A DNA stretch of 64,000 nt, taken from assembly GCA_033391075.1 (NCBI GenBank), contig JAWPMV010000005.1:62001-126000 (forward strand), given 5' to 3'. The notes beneath the pieces are model-generated. The model made no database searches. It was not told where the DNA came from and was given only the letters and a program-made list of their open reading frames with translations. Position numbers and translations under genes: made by a program. The stretch is from Bacteroidia bacterium (lineage in GTDB: Bacteria; Bacteroidota; Bacteroidia; J057). Shown here in pieces: positions 27,538-49,938 of the stretch (positions are counted from its first letter, which is position 1; each line of letters begins with the position of its first letter).

Positions 27538-28866
27538 ATGCTCTGGAACCTCCTGTCCTTACTGCTGATCCTGATCCTCCTGGTCTATTCGGTATCAAAA
27601 TGGAAACTACATCCCTTTATAGCCCTTATTCTGGCTGCGATTGCTCTGGGCTTTTCACTGGGAATGGGAGGAAAACAAAGCCTGGAAGTCTTACTGGAAG
27701 GATTCGGAAACACGATGAAATGGATTGCCATAGTCGTGATTTTGGGAGCCTTTATCGGCGAGGTCTTGAGCGAGACCGGAGCCGCCCAAAGAATTTCAAA
27801 AGCGGTCGTAAAAAGAACCGGAGAAAAGAAGCTTCCCTGGGCAATGGGAATAACCGGATATTTGGTATCTATTCCTGTTTTTGTAGATGTAGCCTATATC
27901 ATTTTACAACCTATCACAGAAGCTTTATCAGTAAAAAGTAAAAGGCCTGTTTTGGTTTTAGGTCTTGCGCTGACAGCTGGACTTACCGTTTCTCATACCT
28001 TGATCCCCCCTACTCCGGGTCCCTTAGTGGTTGCCTCTTTATTAAAGGTGGATTTGGGGAAAATGCTACTTATCAATTTGGGAGTTGGAGGCCTAGCTAT
28101 GGCAGCAGGAATTCTCTGGGCTTCAAAAGCCTGTAAAAATCAATGGCTGGAATATGATCAAAAGCTCCTGGCTCAAAAAAAAGAAATTGATACAGAGACT
28201 GAGCATGCCAATATTCCGGTAATTATGGATCTATTACCCATCCTGGTGCCAATCCTCTTGATGGCTGCAGGTGGATTTCTGGAATTGGAAGAAGGCTCAT
28301 ACTCTCAGGAAATACTTGCTTTCATCAGTACTCCTATTATAGCAGTACTTATTGGGGCTTTTATTGCTTTCTTGCAATTCAACAGGACTTCTGGAAAAGC
28401 CGAATTCAATAGATTGGTAGAACAAGCCATTGTAAAGTCAGCATTGGTAATTATGATCACTGCTGCTGGAGGAGCTTTTGGCAATATCATAAGAGAAAGT
28501 GGAATGGACGCCTCGCTTTCTGACTTCTTTATTTCCTATCCTGCTTTGGGTATAATGTTACCCTTTTTACTTGCAGCAGTCCTTACAACGGCTACCGGCT
28601 CGATAACTGTTTCCCTGATCGGAACTGCCTCAATTTTGGGGCCTATGGCCTCAGAGATGAGTTATTCTCCAGAGATTATGGCTGCCCTGATTGGCTGTGG
28701 ATCCTTTTGCGTTTTTCATGCCAATTCGAGTTTTTTCTGGCTGCTCAATCGTCTGCATGATGTTCCGGTTCACATCCTCTATAAAACCTATACACCTCAA
28801 TCTGCAGTAATGGGTTTTTCAGGTTTAATGCTTGTCCTCTGCCTCCATTTTTTGGGTCTCGCCTAG
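27538..28866 (+). CDS. GntP-family gluconate/sugar-acid:H+ symporter
   Basis: 442 residues from the ATG at 27538 (MLWNLLSLLLILILLVYSVS); a longer in-frame start adds an atypical leader. Twelve or more TM helices with GntP signatures: FIALILAAIALGFSLGM, NTMKWIAIVVILGAFIGEVL, LGLALTAGLTVSHTLIPPTP and ATGSITVSLIGTASILGP. Family members carry gluconate, D-glycerate or related sugar acids across the inner membrane. It sits just upstream of the AraC regulator and SusCD locus and would fit uptake of an acidic monosaccharide released by that locus. Confidence 0.92.
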   Translation: MLWNLLSLLLILILLVYSVSKWKLHPFIALILAAIALGFSLGMGGKQSLEVLLEGFGNTMKWIAIVVILGAFIGEVLSETGAAQRISKAVVKRTGEKKLPWAMGITGYLVSIPVFVDVAYIILQPITEALSVKSKRPVLVLGLALTAGLTVSHTLIPPTPGPLVVASLLKVDLGKMLLINLGVGGLAMAAGILWASKACKNQWLEYDQKLLAQKKEIDTETEHANIPVIMDLLPILVPILLMAAGGFLELEEGSYSQEILAFISTPIIAVLIGAFIAFLQFNRTSGKAEFNRLVEQAIVKSALVIMITAAGGAFGNIIRESGMDASLSDFFISYPALGIMLPFLLAAVLTTATGSITVSLIGTASILGPMASEMSYSPEIMAALIGCGSFCVFHANSSFFWLLNRLHDVPVHILYKTYTPQSAVMGFSGLMLVLCLHFLGLA

Positions 28867-29069
28867 ATTTTTTTTCGATATCCATATGCGTCCCAAAAGA
28901 ATCTATGATTCCCCAGATTGTATTGGCCCCCTGTCATGCTGTTGATTTTTTCAAGAACAAACTTCAAATGTAAAGATCCCTTACAAAATTCCGGGTTTGA
29001 AGAGAAGACTGGTACATTTTTATCCCTTCTAAATCCTTTATTATGCAATCTCATTATTTTCTTATCCAT
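28863..29069 (-). CDS. Doubtful small open frame
   Basis: 68 residues, basic and aromatic (GGQYNLGNHRFFWDAYGY near the end), overlapping the permease stop by 4 bp. I recognise no family; it may be the tail of a lost gene or chance. No upstream extension: a TAA stop lies six codons before the Met. Confidence 0.22.
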   Translation of the reverse strand: MDKKIMRLHNKGFRRDKNVPVFSSNPEFCKGSLHLKFVLEKINSMTGGQYNLGNHRFFWDAYGYRKKI

Positions 29070-29133
29070 ACAAAATTCTATATATTAAGTTGACTACTAC
29101 TACACTTGCCAGGTAAAGGAAGTGTTCATTATT

Positions 29134-30009
29134 ATGAAACTTCAATACAAATCCACCGAGAAGGACATCCGCTCCTCAATTTATGTTAAAAGGGTATTCC
29201 AGCCATATCTGGGAGGGAATTGGCATTTCCATAAGGAATTTGAACTCATATATTTCCTCGAAGGCCAAGGCCATAGAATCGTTGGTGACCATATCTCTCA
29301 TTTTCAAAAAGGTGAATTAGTCCTCGTAGGCGAATGGCTCCCTCATTTATGGAGGAATGACGCAAATTTTGATGGAAAAGCGGATTTTATTGTGGTAAAA
29401 TTTGCCAAAGAATTTTTAGGGGTAAATCTCTTTTCACTTCCCGAACTTAGCGAGATTCGAGTATTGTTGCAGAAGTCTTTCCGGGGAATTCTTTTTTCCA
29501 AAAAAACCCAAATGGAAATAGGCAAACTTTTGCTGCAATTAAGTGAGAGTAAGTCTGTTGATTTGCTGATCAACTTCCTCAAAGTCCTGAACATCCTATC
29601 CAGAGATGAGGATTATCAGCTCCTTTCTAGTCCTCATTTTGTGCTTCCTTCTTCGGGTTCCAGGGAAAATCGACTACAAAAAGTTATTACCTATATTTCA
29701 AATAATTATTCCCGGAATATAAATCTGGAAGAGATTTCAGGTATTGCCCATATGACCCCTCCTGCTTTCTGTCGATTTTTCAAGAACAGTACCCATAAAA
29801 CTTTTTCCCATTTCCTAAATGAGGTTCGTATAAGTAAGGCTTGTCAGCTCCTCATCAATGGCGAGATTTCCATTAAAGAAATCTGTTATGAAGTCGGCTT
29901 TAATTCACTCACCAATTTCAACCGGACATTTCGTAGCATAAAGGGAGAAACTCCTAGTAGTTACAGAGCAGCCTATAGTCTTTTTCGACATTCCCTTTCC
30001 CCGGTATAA
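29134..30009 (+). CDS. AraC-family regulator of the SusCD locus
   Basis: 291 residues from the ATG at 29134; a GTG at 29122 could add four residues. N-terminal cupin sensor (WHFHKEFELIYFLEGQGHRI, GELVLVGEWLPHLWR), C-terminal AraC HTH pair (INLEEISGIAHMTPPAFCRF, SIKEICYEVGFNSLTNFNRT) and the PSSYR end. Cupin-AraC regulators beside SusCD operons usually respond to a sugar and activate the locus. It lies between the permease and susC on the same strand, 228 bp upstream of susC, and the inverted repeat at 30034-30055 is a candidate site. Confidence 0.9.
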   Translation: MKLQYKSTEKDIRSSIYVKRVFQPYLGGNWHFHKEFELIYFLEGQGHRIVGDHISHFQKGELVLVGEWLPHLWRNDANFDGKADFIVVKFAKEFLGVNLFSLPELSEIRVLLQKSFRGILFSKKTQMEIGKLLLQLSESKSVDLLINFLKVLNILSRDEDYQLLSSPHFVLPSSGSRENRLQKVITYISNNYSRNINLEEISGIAHMTPPAFCRFFKNSTHKTFSHFLNEVRISKACQLLINGEISIKEICYEVGFNSLTNFNRTFRSIKGETPSSYRAAYSLFRHSLSPV

Positions 30010-30033
30010 GTAAAAAAGTATATCCTCTGTATT

Positions 30034-30237: not shown

Positions 30238-33200
30238 ATGAAACTGACTACTACTATTCACTACTTTTTTCGATGTAGTCTTCTTGTTTTCAGTCTGATT
30301 TGCTTTACAATTTCCAGCGTATCAGCAGAAGTACATCCAAAAAACGATCTCGATAATGAGTTCGCCCAAATCAGCGGAACTGTCCTGGATGAAGATGGTG
30401 AAGCTCTCATAGGTGCTAGTGTTCGTGCAAAAGGGACCACAGCGGGAGCACTCACAGATGAGCAAGGGAGATTTAGCTTTGATGTTCCAGATGGGGTTAC
30501 TACCCTTATCATTTCTTACATCGGTTATAAAACCCTGGAAGTAAATATTGAAGGCAAAACAAGTGTTACCATTGATATGGTTGCTACGGCAAGCACACTG
30601 GAACAAGTAGTTGTTACCGGATATACTACGCAAAAGAAAGCTAACCTGACGGGTGCTGTTACAGCGGTAAATGCAGATGCTATCGAGAACCGCCCGATTA
30701 CAAGTGCGGCTGTGGCTATGCAAGGTGCCGCACCCGGCGTATTTATCAACCAAAATTCGGGACAGCCGGGACGTGATAATGTCCTGATTCGGATTCGAGG
30801 AGTCGGTACCCTGAATAATGCTAACCCTTTGATTCTGGTGGATGGGATTGAAGCCCCAATTAGTAATCTAAATCCAGATGATATAGAAAGCATCACGATC
30901 CTGAAAGATGCTGCATCGGCAGCTATTTATGGATCACGTGCTGCAAATGGGGTTGTACTGGTTACCACCAAAAATGGAAATGGCCGGGAAGGAGTTTCCT
31001 TTAATTACAATGGATATATTGGTACTACAGAAGGAATTCGTTTACCAGAACTCATCACGGATGCAGCTGCATTTGCGGAGTTGCACAATGAGGCCCAGAC
31101 CAATTTCGGCGAAGCGCCGAAATATACCGATCAGGACATTGCCAATTTCCGGGCAAATGGTCCGAATTCGAATATTATGGACGAATTATTTTCTTCAGCC
31201 CCTATCCAACAACATAACTTTAGTGTGGCAGGAAGTTCGTCCAATACAGATTTCAGATTTTCATTTGGCTACCTGGATCAGCAAGGGATTATGGAGAAAA
31301 CAGGATTTGATCGATACACCAGTCGATTTAATCTTAATACCCGGGTAAATGAGCAGGTCACCATAGGTGTAAACCTGGCCTTAACCCGTGGGGATCGAAT
31401 AGGACATCAGGAAAATCCAGGCAATCTGATTGCCAATATGTTGAGATCATTGCCGGTCGATAGAATACGAAATGATAATGGAGATTTGCTTCGACCAGTT
31501 TTTGGTGTCGGAAATGCGTGGTTCAACGTTATTGAAAACGAATTCAATCGTAAAGAAAATGACGTCCTGGGTTCTACATTTATTGAATACGAAATTATCC
31601 CTGGCCTGAGAGTAAAAGGTACTGCAGCCATAAATTATCGCCATAACTTTGACCGCACCTTAAGATTCACCTCTCCTTCTGCGGATCCTCTTACTAATGT
31701 TGTCACGGTGGGACCCAATGAAAGTAGGTCGGCTTCTCGTGCTACCTGGAATGGGGTCAATATAACTACCTGGCTTCAGGCTACTTACGAAAAGACTTTT
31801 GGTAAAAATTACTTCAAAATTCTGGGAGGATTTAATCAGGAAACCAGTCAGTCTGAATCTTTCTGGGCAGGACGAACCACCTTTATCTCAAATAATGTTC
31901 TTACACTGAATGCAGGAGATCCATCTACTGCTACCAATAGTGAAAGTGCAACTCAATGGGCGCTTCAGTCCTATTTTGGAAGGGTAAACTATGTCCTTGA
32001 CGATAGATATCTCTTTGAGGCCAATTTGCGCTATGATGGTTCTTCAAGATTCCTGAATGAAAAATGGGGGCTCTTCCCCTCATTCTCCGCAGGCTGGATT
32101 ATTTCCAAAGAAACTTTCTTCAATTCTTCTGCTATTGATTTCCTGAAAATCAGGGCATCCTGGGGACAATTGGGGAACCAGAATATTGGAAACTTTAGCT
32201 ATGCAAGGACTTTGAGTTTATCAGAAAACTACAACTTCGGAGGAAGTATTGTCCAGGGAGTCGCCCAGACTTCATTAGGTAATCCTGATCTGGTATGGGA
32301 AACTACCACTTCCTCTAATATTGGGATAAATGCAGAATTGTTTAATTCTCGAATTCAGCTTGAAGCGGATTATTTCATTAGAACTACTGAGGATATTCTC
32401 TTTAATGTACCTGTACCTACCATTTCCGGATTTGGTTCGCAAATTCTTAACTCTGCCGAGGTAGAAAATAAAGGGTGGGAAATTAGCCTCTTCTACAGAG
32501 ATAATTTTGGAGACTTCCGCTTTGGAATAGGAGGAAATGTAACCCATGTAAAAAATGAAGTATTGAAGTTGAATAAACTACTGGGAGAAGAAGAAGTTGA
32601 TCGTAGAATTTCTGGTGCCAATGCAGGTCAAACGGTGCTACAGCCAGGATCGCCAATCGGCGCATATTTTGGCTATAGATCTCTGGGGATTTTCCGCAAC
32701 CAGTCTGAATTTGAATCAGCCGCAGACCATACAGGTATAAATGCTTTGTATGGACCGGGTGATGTACGATTGGAAGACCTGAATGGAGATGGAGTTATTG
32801 ATGCAGAAGATCGACAGGTCATTGGGAACCAGGATCCAAGATGGATCTATGGACTGAACCTTGACTTTGGTTGGAAAGGATTTGACCTGGCTGTTTTGGT
32901 ACAGGGAGCAGCTTCCTATCAGACTTATGGAAGTAATGAACTCTTCTGGCCATTTAATAACCTCCATACAACAGATACACGCTGGTTGGATCGATGGACA
33001 CCTGATAATACAGACGCTACTTTCCCAAGGGTATTTCTGGGAGGAGATGGTTGGCCATCTACCTCAGCTTCCAATAGTTTCTGGTTATTGGATCGCTCTC
33101 ACCTCAGAATCAAAAATGTCCAGTTTAGCTATACCTTACCTCAGAGTTTAATGGACAATAGTTTTCTGCAAAGTGTTCAGATCTACGTCAACGCTCAAAA

Positions 33201-33321
33201 CCTGGCGACATTTACCAGTTTCCCCTTTTTCGATCCTGAAAGACCAAGAGGGGTAAACCGTGCCTGGGATAGTTTCCCAAACCTTAGGATCATTTCCGGG
33301 GGAATAAATGCAAGTTTTTAA
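30238..33321 (+). CDS. SusC/RagA-family TonB-linked outer-membrane transporter
   Basis: 1027 residues. Signal peptide to VSA (residue 30). CarboxypepD-like domain at about 45-120 (ISGTVLDEDGEALIGASV, LIISYIGYKTLEV). TonB box region near EQVVVTGYTTQ (122-131). Plug from 135 to 245: GVFINQNSGQPGRDN, IRGVGTLNNANPLILVDG, IESITILKDAASAAIYG. The rest is the barrel, ending RIISGGINASF. It imports oligosaccharide with the SusD partner 79 bp downstream. A weak inverted pair GAATTG/CAATTC lies in the SusC-SusD gap. Confidence 0.97.
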   Translation: MKLTTTIHYFFRCSLLVFSLICFTISSVSAEVHPKNDLDNEFAQISGTVLDEDGEALIGASVRAKGTTAGALTDEQGRFSFDVPDGVTTLIISYIGYKTLEVNIEGKTSVTIDMVATASTLEQVVVTGYTTQKKANLTGAVTAVNADAIENRPITSAAVAMQGAAPGVFINQNSGQPGRDNVLIRIRGVGTLNNANPLILVDGIEAPISNLNPDDIESITILKDAASAAIYGSRAANGVVLVTTKNGNGREGVSFNYNGYIGTTEGIRLPELITDAAAFAELHNEAQTNFGEAPKYTDQDIANFRANGPNSNIMDELFSSAPIQQHNFSVAGSSSNTDFRFSFGYLDQQGIMEKTGFDRYTSRFNLNTRVNEQVTIGVNLALTRGDRIGHQENPGNLIANMLRSLPVDRIRNDNGDLLRPVFGVGNAWFNVIENEFNRKENDVLGSTFIEYEIIPGLRVKGTAAINYRHNFDRTLRFTSPSADPLTNVVTVGPNESRSASRATWNGVNITTWLQATYEKTFGKNYFKILGGFNQETSQSESFWAGRTTFISNNVLTLNAGDPSTATNSESATQWALQSYFGRVNYVLDDRYLFEANLRYDGSSRFLNEKWGLFPSFSAGWIISKETFFNSSAIDFLKIRASWGQLGNQNIGNFSYARTLSLSENYNFGGSIVQGVAQTSLGNPDLVWETTTSSNIGINAELFNSRIQLEADYFIRTTEDILFNVPVPTISGFGSQILNSAEVENKGWEISLFYRDNFGDFRFGIGGNVTHVKNEVLKLNKLLGEEEVDRRISGANAGQTVLQPGSPIGAYFGYRSLGIFRNQSEFESAADHTGINALYGPGDVRLEDLNGDGVIDAEDRQVIGNQDPRWIYGLNLDFGWKGFDLAVLVQGAASYQTYGSNELFWPFNNLHTTDTRWLDRWTPDNTDATFPRVFLGGDGWPSTSASNSFWLLDRSHLRIKNVQFSYTLPQSLMDNSFLQSVQIYVNAQNLATFTSFPFFDPERPRGVNRAWDSFPNLRIISGGINASF

Positions 33322-33400: not shown

Positions 33401-34981
33401 ATGAAAGATTTTTTAAGAATCATATGTGTATCGGTCCTCATGTTCGCAACAAGTTGTGAAGACACCCTGGACCTCACGCCCATTGATACAGGATCTGTAG
33501 ATGGATTTTTCACAAGTACTACAGATGTCATAGCCGGAGTAAATGGAGTTTATAACTCCTTTACAGGTTCCTGGTGGGGAGGAGCTTTCATTCATGTTCA
33601 ACCTCATTTTGAAGCTGTAACTGAAAACGCTGTTATCTGTTGCGCCTGGGAATACCAGTATAAAGCCATTGCCCAAGGTACATTTAGCCCCAATACGGGT
33701 GGAGTGGTTACCTGGAAATGGGATTATGGGTATCGCGCAATCTTTAGAATCAATTCCATATTAGAAGTTATTGAATCCGGAGTGATAGAGGATTTGGATT
33801 CCTCTTCTGACACTTACAAACAAATTGTAGGAGAACTCCGATTTTTGAGAGCCTATGTCTATCATGAGTTGACCTTCTTATATGGGGATGTTCCTTTAGT
33901 ATTAAAGACGCTTACACCCGCGGAGGCTCGTGTAATTACGCGAACAGCCAGATCTCAGGTAGAGGATGCGATGTATGCAGATATGGATTATGCGATAGCC
34001 AATTTGCAAGAAACTCCTTTCCAGGGTGAATTTGGCAGACCTACCAAGCAGGCAGCTTTATCTTTGAAAGGTAGAGCCCAATTGTTCAGAAATGATTTCG
34101 CAAATGCTGCTTCTACCCTGGCTCAGGTAATTGCTATGGAAGGTGGAGCGGTGGATTTGGATCCAAATTATGAAAGCTTGTTTAGAGGATCCAACGAACA
34201 AAGTCCTGAAATCATCTTCTCACTTCAATACGTTGATTCTGAAGTAGGTGCTGGCGAAGGAAATTTCCTGGGAGCACATTATGGTCCTAATCAATTGGCA
34301 GGAACCACTGCTTCACAAGGACAGGGCTGGGGAGCTTTTCAGTTTACTCAGCATTTGATCGACGATTATTATATGACAGATGGATTACCCTTTGATCAAT
34401 CTCCACTTTATGATCCAGATAATCCTTTTGCCAATAGAGATTCCCGTTTTAGTGGTACATTTTTCTTTCCCGGAGAAACCTATCGAGGAACTGTTTTGAT
34501 CGAAAACAACTTTAACTCCAATGGCGCAGTAAAGGACATCCCGATTGCGTCCAGAAAATGGAAAAATGAAACCTCTAACAACAGCTTTAGCAGCAATGGT
34601 GGAGAAGACTTTATTCTAATTAGGTATGCAGATATCCTCTTGATGTGGGCAGAAGCGACCAATGAAATTTCCGGACCTACAGCCGCTGTATATGAAGCTG
34701 TTAATAAAGTTCGTGCACGTGTAGGCATGCCAAACTTTGATGTAGGTAGTCATACGATGGAAAGCATGCGAGATGAGATCAAGCATGAACGAAAAGTTGA
34801 GTTTTTCATGGAAGGAACCCGCTATTACGACCTGCTTAGATGGAGAGATGCTGAAACCGTTCTCCTTATGCCTAACATTAATGAAGCGAGAACCTTTGAC
34901 CCAGGCAAGCATTACCTTTGGCCTATCCCTCAATTTGCGATAGATCAAAGTCCTAGTATTACGCAAAACCCTGGATACTAA
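33401..34981 (+). CDS. SusD/RagB-family glycan-binding lipoprotein
   Basis: 526 residues. Lipobox MFATSC with Cys19, then LDLTPIDTGSVDGFFTSTTD, the usual SusD beginning. TPR-like helices follow, with LRFLRAYVYHELTFLYGDVP and ALSLKGRAQLFRNDFANAA, and the C-terminal RYADILLMWAEATNE, EVNKVRARVGM-type segment and HERKVEFFMEGTRYYDLLRW are diagnostic. It lies on the cell surface and closes over SusC to capture glycan. Followed at once by an intrinsic terminator. Confidence 0.97.
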   Translation: MKDFLRIICVSVLMFATSCEDTLDLTPIDTGSVDGFFTSTTDVIAGVNGVYNSFTGSWWGGAFIHVQPHFEAVTENAVICCAWEYQYKAIAQGTFSPNTGGVVTWKWDYGYRAIFRINSILEVIESGVIEDLDSSSDTYKQIVGELRFLRAYVYHELTFLYGDVPLVLKTLTPAEARVITRTARSQVEDAMYADMDYAIANLQETPFQGEFGRPTKQAALSLKGRAQLFRNDFANAASTLAQVIAMEGGAVDLDPNYESLFRGSNEQSPEIIFSLQYVDSEVGAGEGNFLGAHYGPNQLAGTTASQGQGWGAFQFTQHLIDDYYMTDGLPFDQSPLYDPDNPFANRDSRFSGTFFFPGETYRGTVLIENNFNSNGAVKDIPIASRKWKNETSNNSFSSNGGEDFILIRYADILLMWAEATNEISGPTAAVYEAVNKVRARVGMPNFDVGSHTMESMRDEIKHERKVEFFMEGTRYYDLLRWRDAETVLLMPNINEARTFDPGKHYLWPIPQFAIDQSPSITQNPGY

Positions 34982-35046: not shown

Positions 35047-35056
35047 GACTTTTATT

Positions 35057-39924: not shown

Positions 39925-42822
39925 ATGATGGACTACCGTACTAGCATATTCTTAGCCCTTATCATCTGTCTTATGACATGCTCCCTGTTTTCTCAGGAAG
40001 AAAGAAGTCTCTCCCTGGACGGAGCTTGGGAAATCATTTTTGATGAACATAATGAAGGGCGAGAAGCTGACTGGATGAAGGACAAAATATTTTCCAATCA
40101 TGCTTCTAAGGAATTCATTCAGCTTCCAATCGCCTGGGAAACCATTAAGCAAGACTATGAAGGAGTCGCTTTTTATCGCAAGGAATTTGAAGTGCCAGCA
40201 GACTGGGAAAACAAACTTATTCGTCTGCACTTTGGCGCGGTAAACTACCTCTCCGAAGTATGGATCAATGATGAAGTAGTTGGCTACCATGAAGGAGGAT
40301 TTAGTCCTTTTGAATTTCGGGTAGATGAAATGATTAAGGTGGGTGAAAAGAATGTCGTAACCCTACGAGTTGTCGGGCCTCTGTTTTTATCCGATAAAGA
40401 AATCGACGGGATGAAAGCTCTTGAAACTCCTCAATGGAGAGGAGGTATCTCCGGAGGGATTTGGCAATCTGTACAGCTTTTGGCCAGCGAGCAATTGTAT
40501 ATAGATGACGTATATATCCAACCCAATATCCAGAACAATACGGCCAGCATTCAAGTACTGCTTGATTATACAGGAATTCAGAATAAAAATATAGAGCTGC
40601 AACTCAACATTTATGAGGTTAATGAAAGCAGTGAAGTAGGACTTCACAAGGAAATTTGGGAGCTTCATTCAGGTAAAAATCAGCACAGCTGGACCCTGCC
40701 TATTCCCAAGTCCCATTATTGGTCTCCGGATGATCCTTTCTTATATCGCTTGGAAGTCACTACCCATATTGATGGGGAAATGGCAGATAGTTGGTCCGGA
40801 AGATTCGGCATGCGAGCCTTGACTATCAAAGACAAAGATTTCTATCTGAATGGAAAGAAAATTTACCTCAAAGCCTCTTTTTTCGAAGGACTCTATCCCA
40901 ATGGAATTGCACATCCCGACTCCAAAGAGATGATCCGGAAGGAAATTCAAATGGCCAAGGATGCAGGTTTTAATTTGATTCGACCCTGGAGGAGGCCACC
41001 GGTTCCACTTTGGTTGGATTTGGCGGATGAAATGGGAGTTCTGGTTGTAGGCAGTCCCGCACTTGAATGCATGCAACTCCCCTTCTCTACTCCCTATTTG
41101 CCTATGCGAGTAGAAAATGAAGTCAGACAAGCCATTCTCCGCGACCGAAACCGAGCCTGTATTATTCAATGGGAATTATTCAACGAACTCCATCGACCTG
41201 TACTAAAGCAAATGATGCGGCCTATGGCCATGCTTGCCCGTGAACTAGACCCTAGTCGTCTTATCCTCGATGAGTCAGGTGGTTGGGCATTTGGAGCAAA
41301 TATGTATCTCCCCTATGAATACGAAGCCACAAAATTCAATGATATCCACAATTATCCGGGACCATTTATCAATAAGGACCGCTATGATGGATATTTATCG
41401 ATTGGTATGACTGAAGAAGAAAAGAAAAGGGCAGGATATACGGCCCGGACACCAGGTAGAAATGTCCTTCCCGGACTCATGTCTTATGTTTCTGAATTAG
41501 GCTACGGGAGTTTGCCGGATTTGACGGTCAATAATGAAAAATTTGCACAAGTGGGCAATCCGCTTACTCCCGCTTTTCGCTATCACAAACGACTTCATGA
41601 AGGTCAAGTAAGAATACTGGAGGAAAGTAATTTCAAATACCTCTATCCGGATATGCAGAAATTCTACCTGGAACAACAGCTCATTCACGGAACGGCTAAT
41701 AAGCGAATGATAGAAGCAGTCCGAGCAAACCCTGAAGTGGATGGATATTGTATCCATGCATTGGTGGCAGGAGATTGGATCATGGGAGCGGGCTTGATGG
41801 ATTTATGGCGAAATCCTAAATCCTATGCCTATGAAGGAACCAAAGCAGCAAATCAGCCCCGGATACTGAGTATCAGAAGTATTCCACGAAACATTTATGC
41901 TGAAAAAGGAAGTAAAATCGAAATAATCGGAATCAATGAGAAAAATGAGATAGCAACTGATTTATGTATAGAAGTGCTTTCAGAGAAAGGGAAAAAGGTG
42001 TATTCCCAAAAGCTTGAAAAAAACTGGGAGGAAGGAGTCTCTACTTTATTTAATCATAGCCTAAACAGCTCCAGAATGAAAGGGAGCTATCAAATAAAAG
42101 CTAAAATTCTCGATTCGGATGGGAATCTACTGGCAGAAAATTCAACTCCTATAGACGTATTTCGATCCAAAGACCTCCAAAGCAAAAATAAAGAAGTCCT
42201 CATTCACGATGAACAGGGTAATCTGAGTCGTTTTCTAGAGCAGAGAAATATTACCCTTTCCGAACTTAACAGCTCTAGCTCCATTTCTCTGCCTCTTCTT
42301 GTAAGTGGAAATCCGGCAAACTTTGAGGATGCCCTACTGGAGCAGATTTTACAACACAGCAAAAAAGGTGGGAAAACGGTTTTTATCGAAGGCTTTGCAA
42401 ATGCATTTCAGGAAGAGAATTCAAAATTTCCCTTCCAGGCCAGGGTTCATCCATCTGTTGGGCTTTGGACCTGTATTCCTCACCTGATTCGAGAACATCC
42501 CATTTTCAAGGGTTTGCCTTCAAATGAAATGATGAAAGACATTTACGAGAACGTTTGGGCAAATAGAACCCTGCGTAACCTTAAAGCTGAAGATGGAAAG
42601 TTGAATGTGCTAGTAGGTTCTATGGGATTTGATTGGTTCTCACGTGAACATAAAATGCACTATTCTGGTCCGGGAGAAGAATGGTGGGGTTCAGATGTTG
42701 CAGAGCTAAGTTATGGCAAAGGGAGTATCATATTCTCCCAACTGAGACTGGTAGAGCATCTGGGAAAAGATCCTGTGGCTGATAAGATTTTACTCAATCT
42801 ACTCAACTACCTGACTCCTTAA
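39925..42822 (+). CDS. GH2-family glycosidase with C-terminal GATase-like domain
   Basis: 965 residues. Signal peptide to FSQ (residue 23). GH2 layout: sugar-binding jelly roll (GAVNYLSEVWINDEVVGYHE), Ig-like domain (SGRFGMRALTIKDKDFYLNG), TIM barrel with acid/base Glu421 in QWELFNELHRP and candidate nucleophile Glu524 in SYVSELGYGS. The last ~220 residues (VLIHDEQGNLSRFLE to the end) contain HPIFKGLPSNEM and look like the glutamine-amidotransferase-like fold that some GH2/GH42 enzymes carry, probably non-catalytic. Activity is likely beta-galactosidase, beta-glucuronidase or mannosidase type. ATG at 39928 is also possible. Confidence 0.9.
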   Translation: MMDYRTSIFLALIICLMTCSLFSQEERSLSLDGAWEIIFDEHNEGREADWMKDKIFSNHASKEFIQLPIAWETIKQDYEGVAFYRKEFEVPADWENKLIRLHFGAVNYLSEVWINDEVVGYHEGGFSPFEFRVDEMIKVGEKNVVTLRVVGPLFLSDKEIDGMKALETPQWRGGISGGIWQSVQLLASEQLYIDDVYIQPNIQNNTASIQVLLDYTGIQNKNIELQLNIYEVNESSEVGLHKEIWELHSGKNQHSWTLPIPKSHYWSPDDPFLYRLEVTTHIDGEMADSWSGRFGMRALTIKDKDFYLNGKKIYLKASFFEGLYPNGIAHPDSKEMIRKEIQMAKDAGFNLIRPWRRPPVPLWLDLADEMGVLVVGSPALECMQLPFSTPYLPMRVENEVRQAILRDRNRACIIQWELFNELHRPVLKQMMRPMAMLARELDPSRLILDESGGWAFGANMYLPYEYEATKFNDIHNYPGPFINKDRYDGYLSIGMTEEEKKRAGYTARTPGRNVLPGLMSYVSELGYGSLPDLTVNNEKFAQVGNPLTPAFRYHKRLHEGQVRILEESNFKYLYPDMQKFYLEQQLIHGTANKRMIEAVRANPEVDGYCIHALVAGDWIMGAGLMDLWRNPKSYAYEGTKAANQPRILSIRSIPRNIYAEKGSKIEIIGINEKNEIATDLCIEVLSEKGKKVYSQKLEKNWEEGVSTLFNHSLNSSRMKGSYQIKAKILDSDGNLLAENSTPIDVFRSKDLQSKNKEVLIHDEQGNLSRFLEQRNITLSELNSSSSISLPLLVSGNPANFEDALLEQILQHSKKGGKTVFIEGFANAFQEENSKFPFQARVHPSVGLWTCIPHLIREHPIFKGLPSNEMMKDIYENVWANRTLRNLKAEDGKLNVLVGSMGFDWFSREHKMHYSGPGEEWWGSDVAELSYGKGSIIFSQLRLVEHLGKDPVADKILLNLLNYLTP

Positions 42823-42862: not shown

Positions 42863-45424
42863 ATGTCCATCAAATCCCAAAGGCTATTTCTCCTGCTTTT
42901 TTTATTGGCTATTCTTCCAGCTAAGATCCTCTTTTCCCAAACTGCAAAAGGTATTTGGACGAAGATGCTCCCTCTTGAAGAGCAAAATCCTGTTTGGAAA
43001 GCTCATTGGATATGGGTAGATGAAAGCAAGGGATATGATGTCATCCTTGCAAGAAAGACTTTTGAATTGGAGCAAGAAGAAAAGAAGGCCCGCTTGTATA
43101 TTTCTGCAAGTTCAATTTATCGCCTATATGTAAACGGAAAATATGTAGCCCGGGGGCCTGCCCGTTCCGCCCCACACCACCAGTATGTAGATGCCTGGGA
43201 GATCGCCGAGTTTCTTCAGAAAGGCAAAAACACCCTGGCCGTAAGGGTACATAGTCAACAAAACAAACATTCCTATCATGACGAAGGAAGGGCCGGTTTA
43301 TTTGTTCAATTGGAAATGGCTGCAAAAACCCTGATTTCAGATAAAAGTTGGAGAGTCTCTGCGGATCTTTCCTGGGATTCCAAGACACCCAAAATTAGCC
43401 GTTTTCAACAGATAGTTACGGATCGGGTAGATTTCAGGGAATATGCACATGGGTGGCATATGTCTGACTTTGACGATGGAAAATGGGAATATGCGACTCC
43501 TTTGATGCGAAATGTGGGTTGGCCCAGTCCTCCCAAAGATGCAGATCCCATTCCCCTCACTCCTCCCTGGACTTCTCTTTTATTGCGAGACCTTCCTTAT
43601 TTAAGGGAGAAGAAGCAAATAGCCATAGTTCCCATTCAGGCTTCATATGTCAGCAGAGAAGAAATTGATCAAGGAGTAAATCTGGATCGGAGTCTGGACA
43701 AAAGAATTAAGAAACAATGGGAATCCTATGCCAGGCAGCAATCTTCACTGGAAATTTCGACTCCGCACGAAAAGGGATCATTCTTTATCCTTTTTGATCT
43801 GGGAAGTTTAAAAAATGGTAGCCCTCAGTTGGAGATTGAGGGGGAAGCAGGTACAGAAATAAGCATATTATGTGCACCCTTTTTGGTAGATGAGGTTTTT
43901 TCTCATAAGGTGGTTTTCTCTGATTTTGAAGACAAGATCATTTTATCAGGCAAAAGGGATAGCTGGGAAGCTACTTATTTTAAACCGGCTCGGTATATGG
44001 GAATTTTGATTCCAGCTTCTTCAGCCCCTGTCAATATCCATTATGCTGGTATTCGATATATAGAATATCCCTTCGAACGTAAGGGCCACATCCGTTCCCC
44101 TCAGGCTCCCTGGATTCAGGCCTATATGGATGCTACCGATCGTACCATCAAAGCCTGTACGACTGATGGATATACCGACAATTATCGAGAAAGACGTCAG
44201 TATGCGCAAACAGGCTACTATGGGGCTATGGGAAATTACTGGCTCTTTGGGGATCATGAACTTCAAAGAAGGTATTTGGTTCAGGTTGCTCAGGAACAGG
44301 ATGCAAACGGAATCATGCCTGCTTATGCACCTCTGGCCGCGGATGATTTTATGATTATCCTGGATTCCAACTGTCTTTGGATTCGTAGCCTGAGAAACTA
44401 CCTGCTCTACTCCGGTGATTATGAGACAGCCAGACACTTGCTTCCTGCTGCCCATAAACTTATGGATCTCTTACACAGCTATACCAATGAGCTTGGGATG
44501 ATCAACAATCCCCCTTACCCTTATTGGTTGGATCACGCACAAATTGATCGGAGAGGGGCCAATTTCACCCTCAATGGGCATTACTTAGGAGCATTGGAAG
44601 ATTTTGTGGAAGTGCTGAACTGGATTGGCGTAAGGGATCTTCAAACCTATGAAGATAGAGCCCAAAAACTGAGGACTTCTCTTTCTACTGAACTATGGGA
44701 TCATGAGCAGGCTTTGTTTTCAGATGCATATATCGATGGTGGCATTTCCAAACGATTTTCAGAACATACACAGGCCATGGCGCTTAGCCTGAACCTGGGT
44801 TCACAAAATCAAAGAGAGCAAGTAATTGCAAAAATTTTGGAAGAGGACAAGCTCAATTATGTAAATCGTGAATCGGGTATGACCATGGTTACACCGGCCA
44901 TGTCCTATTTCCTCCATAAAGGTCTCTGTGAAAATGGATACATAGATGAATCATTCGACTTGTTTCGTCGACGGTTTGATAAAATGCTTGCTCCTGAGGG
45001 GAACCAAAGTCTTTGGGAAGAATGGTGGCTGGATGCTACAGGAAGGAGTGGTGAAAAAAGGAAAACTTCCCGAAGCGATGCCCAAACAGAAAGTGCCTTT
45101 CCCCCTGCCCTATTTGCTGAATACCTTTTAGGACTGAATCCAACAGAACCGGGCATGAAGGAAATACTCATTCATTTACCTAAAACTTCCCTGGAAAATA
45201 TTGAAGCTGAAATCCCTTCGCCTGAGGGTACATTAAAACTCTCATGGCAGTTAGGGCAAGAAGAAGGCAAGCTGATGCTGGAAATACCGGGAGAGATGCA
45301 AATCAAACTGGAGCCTGAAAGTTTTGGGGAAGAAGTTTTAAGGAAAATGAGGATAAATGGGAAAGCACTTAAAGGCGGGAATTTCCCTCTTCTTTCGGCC
45401 GGAAACTATGAGATTTCATTTTAG
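42863..45424 (+). CDS. GH78-like (alpha-L-rhamnosidase-related) glycosidase
   Basis: 853 residues with signal peptide (LFSQ, residue 26). N-terminal carbohydrate-binding-like region (IYRLYVNGKYVARGP, HQYVDAWEI) typical of GH78, then an (alpha/alpha)6 barrel from about 405: RTIKACTTDGYTDNYRERR contains Glu443 at the position of the GH78 general acid, followed by YGAMGNYWLFGDHELQR and AFPPALFAEYLLG. The usual GH78 'CPQR..R..WTGD' wording is replaced, so a relative with another specificity (e.g. uronic or rhamnose-like) is possible. It starts 41 bp after the GH2 stop. Confidence 0.82.
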   Translation: MSIKSQRLFLLLFLLAILPAKILFSQTAKGIWTKMLPLEEQNPVWKAHWIWVDESKGYDVILARKTFELEQEEKKARLYISASSIYRLYVNGKYVARGPARSAPHHQYVDAWEIAEFLQKGKNTLAVRVHSQQNKHSYHDEGRAGLFVQLEMAAKTLISDKSWRVSADLSWDSKTPKISRFQQIVTDRVDFREYAHGWHMSDFDDGKWEYATPLMRNVGWPSPPKDADPIPLTPPWTSLLLRDLPYLREKKQIAIVPIQASYVSREEIDQGVNLDRSLDKRIKKQWESYARQQSSLEISTPHEKGSFFILFDLGSLKNGSPQLEIEGEAGTEISILCAPFLVDEVFSHKVVFSDFEDKIILSGKRDSWEATYFKPARYMGILIPASSAPVNIHYAGIRYIEYPFERKGHIRSPQAPWIQAYMDATDRTIKACTTDGYTDNYRERRQYAQTGYYGAMGNYWLFGDHELQRRYLVQVAQEQDANGIMPAYAPLAADDFMIILDSNCLWIRSLRNYLLYSGDYETARHLLPAAHKLMDLLHSYTNELGMINNPPYPYWLDHAQIDRRGANFTLNGHYLGALEDFVEVLNWIGVRDLQTYEDRAQKLRTSLSTELWDHEQALFSDAYIDGGISKRFSEHTQAMALSLNLGSQNQREQVIAKILEEDKLNYVNRESGMTMVTPAMSYFLHKGLCENGYIDESFDLFRRRFDKMLAPEGNQSLWEEWWLDATGRSGEKRKTSRSDAQTESAFPPALFAEYLLGLNPTEPGMKEILIHLPKTSLENIEAEIPSPEGTLKLSWQLGQEEGKLMLEIPGEMQIKLEPESFGEEVLRKMRINGKALKGGNFPLLSAGNYEISF

Positions 45425-45578: not shown

Positions 45579-47357
45579 ATGAAAAGACCTACTACTACAC
45601 GGCTTTCCAAGGCTCCCTGGATTTTGCTTTTAAGCAGCTTTCTTTTGCTTGATATTTCTTGCGGGCCCTCACAAACAACAACTTCAGAAGCTGACCTTAT
45701 TATTCACAACGCGAAAATCTATACCCTGTCCTGGGAGGATCCGGATGAAAATGGAACACCAGCAGCTGATGCTCCGTTCACGGATGGAAGATGGAATCCG
45801 GATGCGGAGGCAATTGTCATTAAGGGCGATAAACTCATCTACATCGGAAATAAGGAATCCGCTCTAGAATATAAAGGAGATAAGACACAAATCATCGATG
45901 CAGAAGGCAACATTCTTATCCCGGGCTTGATAGACTCACACACCCATCCATTTGGCTTTGGAGCAAATTTGGGGAAAGTAGATCTCACAAATTTGAAGGA
46001 TAAGGAGTTGATTGTTCAGACCTTAAAGGAAGAATCAGATCCGAATATTAAAAAAGGAGATTGGATTCTGGGTTTTGGATATGACGAAGGCAATCTTTCG
46101 ACAGAAGCCCTTCCCAATGCAGATCTGCTTTCCACTCATTTCCCTGATAATCCGGTCTATCTGCTCGGTGCTCATGGCTTTTCATCTGTTGCGAATCGGA
46201 TGGCTATGGAATTGGTAGGAATAAATTCAGACAGTGAGGCTCCTGTTGGTGGTGAAATCGTGAAAGATGCACAAGGTAATCTCATGGGCATTTTTCTCAA
46301 CAATGCCAGCGGAATGCTCGCTGATGCCTTACCGGCTAAAAGCCTCGAAGATTATAAAAAAATCGGACTGTATGGGCTGAACGTAATGGCAAAATCTGGA
46401 TTTACTAGCATTCACGATGCAGGCATGGGCCGAACGAATTATGAAAGCTATCAAGCGCTCGAAGATGAAGGAAACTTGCCCATACGGGTATATGGAATGA
46501 TACGAGCTACGGATACTTCCCTGGTTAATCAGCTTAAACAGCAGGGGCCGGATCAGGACATGGAAGAAATGTTTGTAGTTCGATCGCTTAAGGCATATTA
46601 TGACGGTTCTTTAGGAATTCGAGGTGCCAGAATGATAGAGGATTATTCGGATAAAGCCGGTCACAAAGGTGTCAGCGGTGAGGCATATGGCTATGATGAA
46701 GCCCTGGTTGCTGAAATGATGAATCTGGGTTACCAAACAGGTATACATGCTATTGGGGATGCCGGGAATCGGGAAGTACTGAATTTCTACAATAGAGTCT
46801 ATGAAAAACACCCGAATGCTCGAAAGAATCGAAATCGCATTGAACATGCGCAAGTGGTTCATCCCGATGATTTTGATCGCTTCAAAAGCCTGGATTTGAT
46901 TGCTTCAATGGAACCTCCTCATATGGCCGAGGATTTAGATTGGGCAGAGGATCGAGTAGGACGTGAACGCATCAAAGGGGCTTATGCCTGGCGAACGATG
47001 CGGGAAAAAGGAGTACCCCTGACTTTTAATTCGGACCTTACGGGTTCAGACCACAGCATTTTTTATGGTTTGTATGCAGCCATTGCCCGAAAGAATCGCG
47101 ACAAAAAACCTGATGGCGGCTGGTATATCGAACAAAAGATGTCTCCTGAAGAAGCATTACGTGCCTACACCATTTGGGCGGCATATGCTGGGTTTCAGGA
47201 AAAGGAAATCGGGAGCCTGGAAGTTGGAAAAATGGCGGATATCACCATGCTAAATATTGATGTACTCAATCTGGGTTTGACGGATCCGGATAAATTATGG
47301 GACGGAAAAATCCTGATGACAATGGTAGGAGGCAAAATAGTTTATGAAGGAATGTAA
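45579..47357 (+). CDS. YtcJ-like amidohydrolase lipoprotein
   Basis: 592 residues. Lipobox LLLDISC with Cys28, an unusual location for an amidohydrolase. The amidohydrolase_3 (YtcJ-like) core shows HTHPFGFG (His121-x-His123), a metal-binding His in GIHAIGDAGNRE, RIEHAQVVHPDD and the closing NSDLTGSDHSIFYG Asp. The chemistry is metal-dependent hydrolysis of amide-type bonds; an amino-sugar deacetylase or dipeptide role is conceivable but unproven. Begins 154 bp after the GH78-like gene. Confidence 0.88.
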   Translation: MKRPTTTRLSKAPWILLLSSFLLLDISCGPSQTTTSEADLIIHNAKIYTLSWEDPDENGTPAADAPFTDGRWNPDAEAIVIKGDKLIYIGNKESALEYKGDKTQIIDAEGNILIPGLIDSHTHPFGFGANLGKVDLTNLKDKELIVQTLKEESDPNIKKGDWILGFGYDEGNLSTEALPNADLLSTHFPDNPVYLLGAHGFSSVANRMAMELVGINSDSEAPVGGEIVKDAQGNLMGIFLNNASGMLADALPAKSLEDYKKIGLYGLNVMAKSGFTSIHDAGMGRTNYESYQALEDEGNLPIRVYGMIRATDTSLVNQLKQQGPDQDMEEMFVVRSLKAYYDGSLGIRGARMIEDYSDKAGHKGVSGEAYGYDEALVAEMMNLGYQTGIHAIGDAGNREVLNFYNRVYEKHPNARKNRNRIEHAQVVHPDDFDRFKSLDLIASMEPPHMAEDLDWAEDRVGRERIKGAYAWRTMREKGVPLTFNSDLTGSDHSIFYGLYAAIARKNRDKKPDGGWYIEQKMSPEEALRAYTIWAAYAGFQEKEIGSLEVGKMADITMLNIDVLNLGLTDPDKLWDGKILMTMVGGKIVYEGM

Positions 47358-47418
47358 GGCGCTTGACCTTTGGGAATTGAGCTTGTCTTCATTTTGCCAG
47401 AAAATCAAACCAGATCAG

Positions 47419-48246
47419 ATGTCTCTACAACACATAGAAATACTCAGAAGAAGCATAGGAATCACATTCTGCCTCCTTATCATTTTGTCATGCAGCCAGA
47501 TGGAAAATGCGGACAAGGGAGTATCCAGGGAAGAGGTAAAAAATCAAGTTTTGGTCCTGGGCACTATTCATAGCGGCCATTTAAAAGATAGCGTTTATAA
47601 TATCTCATACCTGGATAAATTGATTCGTGAGATCGATCCCGATTTTATCCTGGCCGAGATTCCTCCGGATCGTATGCAGGAGGCCATGGAAGGATTTTTG
47701 AGGGATGATAGCATTTCTGAGCCACGTGTCATGCGATTTCCGGAATATGTGGATGTCGTTTTTCCTCTACTCAAAGAAATGGATTTCGAAATTATCCCCA
47801 CAGCCGGATGGACCCAACCTATGGCTCAGGAAAGAAGCCAAAAACTGAGAGCTATTAGTGAAAATCCAGATCGTTTGGATGATTGGAAAGCATATCGGGA
47901 AGCCAATAGGCAGTCAGATTCGGTTTATGAAGCTAGCGGAAAACGCAATGATCCCTATTTTATCCATACACATAGCTATGACAGCATTCAGGATATCGCT
48001 TTGCAAGTCTATAATCGCCTGTTTAATGTGGAATTGGGCTTAGGGGGATGGGACAATATCAACATCGCGCACTACTGGAATATTCATAAGGCGCTGGAGA
48101 AACACAAATATGCAGGAAAGCGATTCCTGATTATTTATGGAGCGGGCCATAAAGGTTGGTTTCTCAGGGAATTGAAACAAAGAGATGATATTCAACTGCT
48201 GGAGATGCGTCCCTTCCTGGATGCCATTTCTGAAATGAGTCCTTAA
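47419..48246 (+). CDS. DUF5694 / TIKI-TraB-like lipoprotein
   Basis: 275 residues from the ATG at 47419, which gives a signal and lipobox LIILSC; a longer in-frame start at 47344 would overlap the amidohydrolase end. Key motifs of the TIKI/TraB/EreA-like superfamily: VLVLGTIHSGH near residue 45 and IIYGAGHKGWFL near the end, with conserved Glu in LAEIPPDRM. Members are putative metal-dependent hydrolases or esterases. Lipid anchoring places it outside the cytoplasm. Function in the glycan locus is unclear. Confidence 0.75.
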   Translation: MSLQHIEILRRSIGITFCLLIILSCSQMENADKGVSREEVKNQVLVLGTIHSGHLKDSVYNISYLDKLIREIDPDFILAEIPPDRMQEAMEGFLRDDSISEPRVMRFPEYVDVVFPLLKEMDFEIIPTAGWTQPMAQERSQKLRAISENPDRLDDWKAYREANRQSDSVYEASGKRNDPYFIHTHSYDSIQDIALQVYNRLFNVELGLGGWDNINIAHYWNIHKALEKHKYAGKRFLIIYGAGHKGWFLRELKQRDDIQLLEMRPFLDAISEMSP

Positions 48247-48276
48247 GAATAATGAGTCTGCTGATGTTATAGATAT

Positions 48277-48984
48277 ATGAAAGTTGAAGTCCTGGTAGAT
48301 AAAGATGCATTAGCAGAAACAGCTTCAAACTTTCTGCTAGAAGAAATTAGGAAGCATGCAAAATTGCTATTGTGTGCTGCTACGGGAAATACTCCTATTG
48401 GAACCTATAAAAAGTTGAGCGAAAAGCTGAAAAGCGATCAGGCAGAAAAAATCCGATTATTAAAACTCGATGAATGGGGAGGCATTTTTATGGCTCATCC
48501 CGAAAGCTGCGAACAGTATTTACAAGAAAGTCTTATAAAACCCCTGAAAATATCGAAGGATCGCTACTTCTCTTTTGAGAGCGATCCAAATAATCCCGAG
48601 CTAGAGATCAAGCGCATGCAGAAAATCCTGGATAGAGAAGGCCCTATTGATCTCTGTGTATTGGGTTTAGGGGCGAATGGACACCTTGCTTTTAATGAGC
48701 CAGCAGATCAATTAATTCCCCATTGCCATATTGCTGATCTTTCTTCAGCAAGTATGCAACACAGCATGGCGCAGGCTATGGAAGAAAAACCCACATATGG
48801 ATTAAGTTTAGGAATGGCTGATATACTTCAATCCAAAACTATTGTCATATTGATTAGTGGGAAGCATAAACGAGCCATAACAAAAGCCTTTCTCTCTCAA
48901 AAAATAAGTACCCAGCTGCCTGCCTCTTTCCTATGGCTGCATCCTCGAACCTACTGCTTTTTGGATCAGGAAGCTTTTGGATAA
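48277..48984 (+). CDS. Hexosamine-6-phosphate deaminase/isomerase (NagB/AgaI-like)
   Basis: 235 residues. NagB superfamily motifs: LLLCAATGNTPIGTYKKL (phosphate loop), RLLKLDEWGG with catalytic Asp, CVLGLGANGHLAFNEPAD with the metal/active-site His, and KPTYGLSLGMADIL. The last wording is closer to galactosamine-6-phosphate isomerase than to the glucosamine enzyme, so the natural substrate may be galactosamine-6-phosphate. It makes a fructose- or tagatose-6-phosphate. Followed 33 bp later by the ROK kinase, together forming a small sugar-phosphate branch of the locus. Confidence 0.85.
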   Translation: MKVEVLVDKDALAETASNFLLEEIRKHAKLLLCAATGNTPIGTYKKLSEKLKSDQAEKIRLLKLDEWGGIFMAHPESCEQYLQESLIKPLKISKDRYFSFESDPNNPELEIKRMQKILDREGPIDLCVLGLGANGHLAFNEPADQLIPHCHIADLSSASMQHSMAQAMEEKPTYGLSLGMADILQSKTIVILISGKHKRAITKAFLSQKISTQLPASFLWLHPRTYCFLDQEAFG

Positions 48985-49017
48985 ACATTCCATTCCACAA
49001 CTTTAACGATCAATCTC

Positions 49018-49938
49018 ATGGTAATTCAGGCAGGTATCGGAATAGATTTGGGGGGCACAAGCCTCAAATATGGTATCGTAGATATTGCTCGGAAGGTCCA
49101 TTGGGAAAGTAAAAGGCCCAGTAAAGCCAAAACCTCGCGGAGAGAAATTGAAGAAAACATCCTGGAGTCTGCCAATGAAGCCCTCATACAGGCAGAATCC
49201 TTGGGAATCAATATTCAGGCAATTGGAATAGGGACTCCGGGAGTTGTAAATGGGGCGGGCTTAGTCCTGGGTGGTTCCCCTAACCTTGCAGGCTGGGATC
49301 AGGTTCCGCTGGCAAAGATTCTCCAAGAAGCCACGGGCCTTCCTGCTGTTGCAGCCAATGATGCAGATATGATGGCTATAGGAGAAACACATGCTGCAGG
49401 AGGAGAAGCTACTACGGCCATATTCATCACCCTCGGTACAGGAATCGGAGGAGCTATGATTATCAAGGGGGAACTCTTCACCGGACATTTTGGTCTGGGA
49501 GGAGAAATGGGCGTAATCCCGATGCTGATTGATGGGAAAGTGTATAGCTGGGAAGATGTGGCGAGTACAACTGCTTTGGTAAAGCGCTATCGGGAAACCA
49601 GACCTGAAAAAGAGGGGGAAATAGATGGCAAATACATCATTCAGAAGTATTGGGAGGGTGAAGAATTAGCTAAAGAGAGCCTGGAATACTTTAGTCAGTT
49701 AGTTGGAATGGGGATAGCTGCCTTCATCAACATCTTCAATCCGGAAATGATCATTATTGGAGGCGGGATCTCTGAAGCAGGAGACTTTCTCATAGAGAAG
49801 ATCAAAACCCATAGTTTTAGATATGCCCTAAAGCCTTGCCAGCAAGGAGTCAAAATTTTGCGAGCAAGTTTAGGAAATCGAGCGGGATTCATGGGCGCGG
49901 GTATGTATGCCTTATCTCAATATCCAGCAAGCCCATAA
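49018..49938 (+). CDS. ROK-family sugar kinase
   Basis: 306 residues. ATP-binding start GIGIDLGGTSLKYGIVD, GIGTPGVVNGAGLVLGG, catalytic Asp115 in ANDADMMAIGE, and GTGIGGAMIIKGELF. The usual ROK zinc motif CxCGxxGCxE is replaced: after GGEMGVIPM comes DGKVYSWEDVASTTAL with no cysteine, as in Bacteroidota glucokinase-type members. Sugar choice is therefore open (glucose, N-acetylhexosamine or fructose). It is the last gene of the plus-strand run and converges on the response regulator gene. Confidence 0.9.
   Translation: MVIQAGIGIDLGGTSLKYGIVDIARKVHWESKRPSKAKTSRREIEENILESANEALIQAESLGINIQAIGIGTPGVVNGAGLVLGGSPNLAGWDQVPLAKILQEATGLPAVAANDADMMAIGETHAAGGEATTAIFITLGTGIGGAMIIKGELFTGHFGLGGEMGVIPMLIDGKVYSWEDVASTTALVKRYRETRPEKEGEIDGKYIIQKYWEGEELAKESLEYFSQLVGMGIAAFINIFNPEMIIIGGGISEAGDFLIEKIKTHSFRYALKPCQQGVKILRASLGNRAGFMGAGMYALSQYPASP

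Follow-up and report, generated by a model that had tools for sequence, protein, structure and literature searches.

Carrageenan is a major polysaccharide of red algae, and in the literature consulted the release of its anhydro-sugar is ascribed only to GH127 and GH129-type enzymes. In the parts of the published account available to us (PMC5698469), the core of the carrageenan system consists of dauA-D, dagA, cgsB (S1_7 sulfatase), cgrA (AraC regulator) and cgtA/cgtB (SusCD pair). The route leads from 3,6-anhydro-D-galactose (D-AnG) to anhydrogalactonate, 2-keto-3-deoxygalactonate, its 6-phosphate and finally pyruvate and glyceraldehyde-3-phosphate. These parts also describe dagA as strictly conserved in the carrageenan polysaccharide utilization loci (PULs) surveyed, list ZGAL_3158 only as a high-affinity sugar transporter, and report that the GH2 beta-galactosidase needed for the route is remote from the cluster in Zobellia. 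Here, we compare these systems with a locus at 27463-49938 of a stretch of 64,000 nucleotides from a Bacteroidia bacterium (GCA_033391075.1, contig JAWPMV010000005.1, positions 62,001 to 126,000); 'the window' refers to this whole stretch. An earlier note on this DNA had described a sulfated-glycan utilization locus, and its gene content bears this out. Our results indicate that the genes at 27463-45424 probably form a PUL for a D-AnG-containing sulfated galactan of red algae, of the carrageenan or furcellaran type, in which a GH78-like enzyme is proposed to take the place of DagA, and that the genes at 45579-49938 form a separate group.

The identity of one enzyme is central to this reading. 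The earlier note had recognized a sugar-acid dehydratase; the enzyme is indeed present, but it is most likely a DauB-type cycloisomerase, closer to DauB than to the galactarolactone enzyme AtGci. Its best relative of solved structure is Zobellia DauB (5olc), with 480 bits across residues 3-376; according to the available part of the source, the cycloisomerase activity of this protein on 3,6-anhydro-D-galactonate was assayed (PMC5698469). AtGci (4ggb) comes second with 305 bits. Window enzyme and AtGci share the catalytic residues K166 and H296 and the metal ligands D194, E220 and E246 (AtGci numbering), an enolase-superfamily set that is kept in all 18 aligned rows, as well as D87 and W298. 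The DauB lid motifs FSQW and TGLYF, however, are common to the window enzyme, its relatives and the Zobellia-like DauB, and are absent from AtGci; exceptions are FSQH or FSQN in two Acidobacteriota rows and TGMYF in locus L025. In the phylogenetic tree, which has several long branches, the window enzyme groups with those from other loci with a GH78-like gene, next to four from GH127-type loci. Support was 87/98 for this group of 13 rows and 91/89 for a group of eight rows, drawn open, that includes the window enzyme. A route for L-anhydrogalactose, as from agar, was rejected, because the L-anhydrogalactonate enzyme 5xd7 is only a distant match (128 bits).

The second line of evidence is the distribution of the GH78-like gene. 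We used the GH78-like protein to scan 84,980 species genomes, a single-protein scan that finds close relatives only, and obtained 11 further loci with 49-57% identity. They belong to Saprospiraceae, Lewinella, Flavobacteriaceae, Cytophagales and two Acidobacteriota, all from metagenome-assembled genomes (MAGs). DauB was found in every one of these genomes and hence, with the window genome, in 12 of 12 that carry the GH78-like gene. As background, DauB occurred in 6 of 395 genomes of the phylum (E<=1e-70, own genome included) and the GH78-like gene in 1 of 395 (E<=1e-50), or 1 of 22 in the order, in both cases the window genome itself. DauB lies in the same stretch as the GH78-like gene in six relatives (L023, L026, L027, L030, L032 and L033). 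In L024 and L025 the contig with DauB (L075, L079) ends inside the matching GH2 gene, and in L028 it ends inside a RhaT gene (L070). GH2 itself adjoins the GH78-like gene in the window and in 10 of the 11 relatives; in the remaining one, L029, the contig ends there.

GH78 enzymes have been characterized as alpha-L-rhamnosidases, and the window protein clearly has the fold of this family. Its AlphaFold model matches RhaB (2okx) with Z 34.8 (658 residues aligned, root mean square deviation 9.5), 3cih of Bacteroides thetaiotaomicron with Z 33.6 and 8iwf with Z 33.5 (534 aligned, deviation 3.2); identity over the structure alignment is 22-23% for RhaB and 3cih. With a pLDDT of 69.9, a pTM of 0.65 and loops 434-448 and 719-740 below pLDDT 50, the model appears too weak in the active-site loops to judge sugar binding. 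In a profile alignment with counted positions, RhaB D567, E572 and E841, which we take to be the catalytic acids, correspond to D439, E443 and E719. RhaB D579 and the motif CHAW, presumably involved in rhamnose binding, are replaced by T450 and AQTE. All these residues of the window protein, conserved and altered alike, are invariant in the 11 aligned rows (L028, cut by a contig end, was left out). Hence, the protein resembles the rhamnosidases in fold and catalytic acids but differs at the residues for rhamnose, and its genomic partner is DauB.

This pattern coincides with the absence of DagA. None of the 12 genomes with the GH78-like gene has DagA, the best GH127 protein being 38% identical to DagA of the Zobellia-like locus L054. 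Conversely, DagA is present in all five genomes of the phylum sample that have DauB but not the GH78-like gene (G209, G237, G143, G162 and G366, which we count as part of the 395-genome sample by inference); the DagA-type GH127 proteins of G209 and G237 are 50-67% identical to L054 DagA. We therefore propose that the GH78-like protein may act as an alpha-(3,6-anhydro)-D-galactosidase that replaces DagA. Whether this combines with the import of already oxidized 3,6-anhydro-D-galactonate by GntP into a hitherto undescribed route, in window-type genomes that lack DauA, is a more tentative matter; we regard it as possible, at somewhat under even chances.

An alternative explanation might be that the D-AnG pathway is the same, while the GH78-like enzyme removes another side-chain or terminal sugar, perhaps L-rhamnose, and an unlinked, unrecognized enzyme frees D-AnG. 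The family fold and the matched catalytic acids fit this explanation. In addition, a second carrageenan-induced Zobellia locus has GH28 and GH29 genes, as far as the available text goes (PMC5698469). We nevertheless consider it unlikely, although worth keeping in view: it leaves the company of DauB and GH2, the invariant exchanges at the rhamnose-binding positions and the lack of both DagA and DagB in these genomes to be accounted for. GH78 is named once in the available parts of the carrageenan study, for gut Bacteroides PULs with a dagA1-like gene (PMC5698469). Other glycan-active proteins occur in some relatives. L026 contains a second, distant GH78-like protein (19% identity) further downstream, at 16690-19143. 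GH136-like (lacto-N-biosidase) beta-helix proteins lie near the GntP or GH78-like gene in L073 (4189-6525), L074 (12506-14776), L075 (9258-11546) and L026 (15109-16689); they are candidate endo- or exo-enzymes. The block in the window has no such protein.

The preferred reading, a D-AnG system with a GH78-like enzyme in place of DagA, is further supported by pathway genes in the relatives. In 4 of the 11, an anhydrogalactose dehydrogenase lies 3' of DauB, and a kinase and/or aldolase precedes the sulfatase. The order in L026 is DauB, aldehyde dehydrogenase, RhaT-like symporter, KDPG aldolase, PfkB KDG kinase, sulfatase, GH2 and GH78-like gene. The same genes occur in L030 and L032, where kinase and aldolase have changed places; their symporter is 73% identical to that of L026, their kinase 32-33%, and their aldolase 35-38% identical to the Zobellia-like DauD. 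L028 has AraC, DauB, dehydrogenase and RhaT on one contig and aldolase, sulfatase, GH2 and GH78-like gene on another. The dehydrogenases share 66-68% identity with the one from the GH127 locus L053; their identity with the Zobellia-like DauA is 53-54%. These operons thus appear to encode the published D-AnG route, with a PfkB kinase replacing the DgoK type. In the window genome, a DgoK-like kinase and a KDPGal aldolase lie side by side and divergently at about 80.1-81.8 kb of G000:C4 (L071, 10137-11825), unlinked to the locus. They are 39% and 42% identical to the Zobellia-like DauC and DauD and likely provide the downstream steps, although the pair could serve D-galactonate instead. The genome also has a PfkB KDG kinase (46%).

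The other genes of the block can be fitted into this scheme. Members of the GntP family import sugar acids, and GntP orthologues with 62-67% identity occur in seven of the nine Bacteroidota genomes with the GH78-like gene. Matches in both Acidobacteriota are 44% identical, one of them partial, and at E<=1e-60 there is none in the genomes of L030 and L032. AraC identity is 60-63% in L023, L024 (L075), L026 (L067), L028 (L070) and L033, 48% in L027 and 40% in L025 (L079); no AraC gene was seen beside DauB in L030 and L032 (stretches L068 and L069). SusC orthologues adjoin GntP in L076 (62%) and L077 (66%), with SusD (71-72%) following GntP and the FG-GAP/ASPIC protein (56% and 61%) located 3' of SusD. 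The latter is likely a surface glycan-binding or accessory protein. Another FG-GAP/ASPIC protein was seen inside the GH127-type anhydrogalactose locus L052 (1335-3236), so that such proteins are possibly a recurrent part of anhydrogalactose systems.

The sulfatase has the motif CGPSR (CxPSR) at residue 90. It is 56-66% identical to its counterparts in eight homologous loci and 43% in L027 (10 rows aligned, own plus nine); it lies directly 5' of GH2 in 8 of the 11 loci and after the GH78-like gene in L027. The two Acidobacteriota contigs carry none. Desulfation probably takes more than one step in the two Flavobacteriaceae loci, because extra sulfatase-like genes flank the DauB-GH78 operon there (L030 12546-15347, L032 12558-15521, L068 1287-3059 and L069 1470-3242). 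GH2 is most likely a beta-galactosidase. Its residues E421 and E524, which by motif we assume to be acid/base and nucleophile, are invariant in all eight aligned rows (L024, L025 and L031 were left out as cut, and L029 has no GH2 on its contig).

Together, these genes suggest the following mechanism. Oligosaccharides would enter via SusC/SusD, aided by the FG-GAP/ASPIC surface protein. In the periplasm, the S1 sulfatase, GH2 and the GH78-like enzyme would alternate in removing sulfate, beta-linked galactose and alpha-linked D-AnG, respectively. The N-termini of these three proteins are hydrophobic and signal-like by eye, and that of the cycloisomerase is not. 3,6-Anhydro-D-galactonate would then be imported by GntP and converted by the cytoplasmic DauB-type enzyme, judged by its close similarity to the assayed enzyme, to 2-keto-3-deoxy-D-galactonate. 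A kinase and an aldolase encoded elsewhere in the genome would complete the route, and local regulation is probably due to the AraC protein.

Several observations weigh against this reading. First, a close homologue of DauA is lacking in the window genome, where the best aldehyde dehydrogenase is 39% identical; among the relatives, a DauA-type dehydrogenase was found at E<=1e-120 in 4 of 11 and not in the other seven. Own genome, L023, L024, L025, L027 and L033 combine DauB, the GH78-like gene and GntP without a close DauA. Because of this, oxidation must be due to an unrelated enzyme, occur in the periplasm or precede uptake. One aldehyde dehydrogenase, at G000:C1:1702396, was considered as DauA and rejected (33-38% to DauA-like ones); its neighbours, a second aldehyde dehydrogenase, a sulfatase-like protein and a protein of 538 amino acids, might point to choline-sulfate/betaine metabolism. 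Second, SusC is only 29-31% and SusD 25-27% identical to the proteins of GH127-type loci, and the sulfatase is only 29% identical to the CgsB-like sulfatase. The sulfation pattern or oligosaccharide may therefore differ from kappa/iota-carrageenan. Third, one of the better matches of the sulfatase among solved structures is the GH78/sulfatase protein 6hr5 (122 bits). Fourth, in the two Acidobacteriota DauB lies next to GntP (L080, L081) on another contig than the GH78-like gene. Finally, the exclusion between DagA and the GH78-like gene (12 versus 5 genomes) gives a Fisher p of 1.6e-4, a value that is too strong, since it treats related genomes as independent and since the relatives are represented by MAGs, some of which are clearly small. 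Only DagA is informative here: DagB is missing from all 12 genomes, but because it is also missing from three of the five DagA genomes, its absence says little.

A further alternative follows a glycan type that the earlier note had considered, pectin or ulvan-like; the target would then be a glycan with uronic acid or rhamnose, with a Gci-type cycloisomerase acting on galactaro- or glucaro-lactone or a related acid and a true rhamnosidase. Besides the second rank of AtGci, the import of sugar acids by GntP and the missing DauA, the residue at position 301 suits this explanation: it is G in the window enzyme as in AtGci, and also in the remaining relatives, but the Zobellia-like DauB has W and the Acidobacteriota have C. 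This position varies, however, also among anhydrogalactose systems (A in four GH127-type loci), whereas overall similarity and lid motifs are far closer to DauB. Furthermore, the genes next to close relatives of the enzyme encode a dehydrogenase, a kinase and an aldolase, in keeping with the anhydrogalactose route, and family scans of the block matched neither a polysaccharide lyase nor GH105. We consider this explanation quite improbable. It should be added, as a further point in its favour and against a carrageenan-type system, that the available parts of one source name GH78 and S1_7 sulfatases for ulvan use, and GH127/GH129 and GH2 for carrageenan (PMC8360166).

The earlier note also proposed a single amino-sugar or sulfated-glycosaminoglycan pathway over 27538-49938, which would feed an amino-sugar phosphate into glycolysis through the AgaI-like protein and the ROK kinase; this is very hard to maintain, for although the AgaI-like protein passes the AgaI cut-off, the kinase is adjacent and the sulfatase has an SGSH-type C-terminal domain, the group is set apart by 154 bases, its four genes match nothing above 60 bits in the 11 homologous loci and nothing in the further stretches searched (10 kb downstream being present in five of the 11 loci), the block has no lyase match for a chondroitin or heparin route, and the available part of a review assigns AgaI an auxiliary role in galactosamine-6-phosphate deamination, with AgaS as the enzyme (PMC12118421).

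For the same lack of matches, we place the amidohydrolase, the DUF5694-like protein, the AgaI-like protein and the ROK kinase outside the D-AnG system, as a separate neighbouring group; the conserved unit appears to run from GntP through the GH78-like gene. Within the neighbouring group, the amidohydrolase misses all NCBIfam cut-offs shown by a wide margin (59 bits versus 298 for the best). By eye, the AgaI-like protein shows GANGH at the place where D precedes GH in NagB enzymes, and the zinc motif CxCGxxGC appears to be missing from the ROK kinase.

The layout of the locus agrees with this division (Table 1). The window genome comprises 9.49 Mb in 5 contigs and is 99.2% complete. The locus has 13 intact genes, all on the + strand, that were found as long open reading frames (ORFs). 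All genes named in the earlier note were real and have clear family matches, but its list omitted two, the predicted amidohydrolase_3 lipoprotein and the weakly DUF5694-like gene; its GntP start at 27538 is possible, although the ORF may also begin at 27463. The cycloisomerase, sulfatase, GH2 and GH78-like genes form one tight group (gaps of 3, 12 and 40 bases), and the four genes downstream of it another (gaps of -14, 30 and 33 bases). The terminator that had been placed near 35011 was recovered as a hairpin with T tail of about -19 kcal/mol, although it is missing from the pattern-scan terminator list. Rfam and tRNA scans returned nothing in either case. Independent regulation downstream of this terminator had been named as an argument against a single system. 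This argument loses force: two relatives have GntP, SusC, SusD and the ASPIC gene together (L076, L077) and AraC and DauB elsewhere (L067, L070), so that a split into several transcription units need not mean several functions.

Table 1. Features of the locus, with positions in the window and the matches or values on which each assignment is based
Feature	Position	Strand	Basis
GntP-family acid/H+ symporter	27463..28866 (alternative start 27538)	+	PF02447 6.8e-91
AraC-type regulator, N-terminal cupin	29122..30009	+	PF12833, PF07883
SusC-like TonB-dependent transporter	30238..33321	+	PF07715, PF13715
SusD-like surface lipoprotein	33401..34981	+	PF07980
Hairpin with T tail, likely intrinsic terminator, between susD and ASPIC gene	35011..35045	+	-18.9 to -19.5 kcal/mol
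FG-GAP/ASPIC protein with type IX secretion sorting tail	35057..36970	+	PF13517, PF07593, PF18962
DauB-type 3,6-anhydro-D-galactonate cycloisomerase (enolase superfamily, MR/MLE), most likely	37108..38250	+	5olc 480 bits, motifs, tree
S1-family formylglycine sulfatase, signal-like N-terminus	38254..39912	+	PF00884, PF16347
GH2 exo-beta-glycosidase	39925..42822	+	PF02837/PF00703/PF02836
GH78-like (alpha/alpha)6 glycosidase, altered motif	42863..45424	+	family match, fold, alignment, distribution
Amidohydrolase_3, predicted lipoprotein, first gene of second group	45579..47357	+	PF07969 1.7e-93
Weakly DUF5694-like protein	47344..48246	+	20.1 bits, below Pfam cut-off 27.5
AgaI-like NagB-family protein	48277..48984	+	NF007291 294.7 bits, cut-off 271
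ROK-family sugar kinase	49018..49938	+	PF00480 5.4e-53

Most likely, then, the locus is not a mixed pathway, but a new version of the D-AnG systems of carrageenan type, next to a group of genes that does not travel with it. The operon of DauB and a modified GH78 gene, found in Saprospiraceae, Lewinella, Flavobacteriaceae and Cytophagales and in parts in two Acidobacteriota, predicts a new activity in a family reputed for rhamnosidases. It also suggests that routine names, such as galactonate dehydratase and rhamnosidase, hide carrageenan-type loci. The published survey used DagA and DauA as queries and would miss the type seen in the window (PMC5698469); a dagA-less type of PUL could not stand out for that reason.

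How, then, does the locus compare with the known systems? The earlier note had found no single known PUL with this gene combination. The combination of GntP, AraC and DauB does not appear odd, because the three also occur together in the carrageenan-type cluster L054 of the Zobellia-like genome G237, whose DauB equals the printed 5olc sequence but for a few residues. There, DauB is accompanied by homologues of DauA, DgoK and the aldolase, three GH127, one GH129-like protein, RhaT, GntP and AraC, with the GntP gene flanked by those of the RhaT-like symporter and AraC (9064-13713). The window proteins are 40% (GntP) and 41.7% (AraC) identical to those of L054. The glycosidases, on the other hand, are indeed unlike the described carrageenan sets. 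With the Z. galactanivorans cluster ZGAL_3145-3159 (dag/dau/cgs), the locus shares DauB, an AraC regulator in the cluster and an S1 sulfatase, with the Zobellia route a GH2 enzyme, most likely a beta-galactosidase, with L054 a GntP gene near dauB and with L052 an FG-GAP/ASPIC protein. It differs from the GH127-type loci in its own, only distantly related SusC/SusD pair and from the CgsB-like sulfatase in the divergent sequence of its sulfatase. Where the Z. galactanivorans cluster has the GH127 enzyme DagA, the GH129-like DagB and DauA, the operon in the window contains a GH2 and a GH78-like enzyme.

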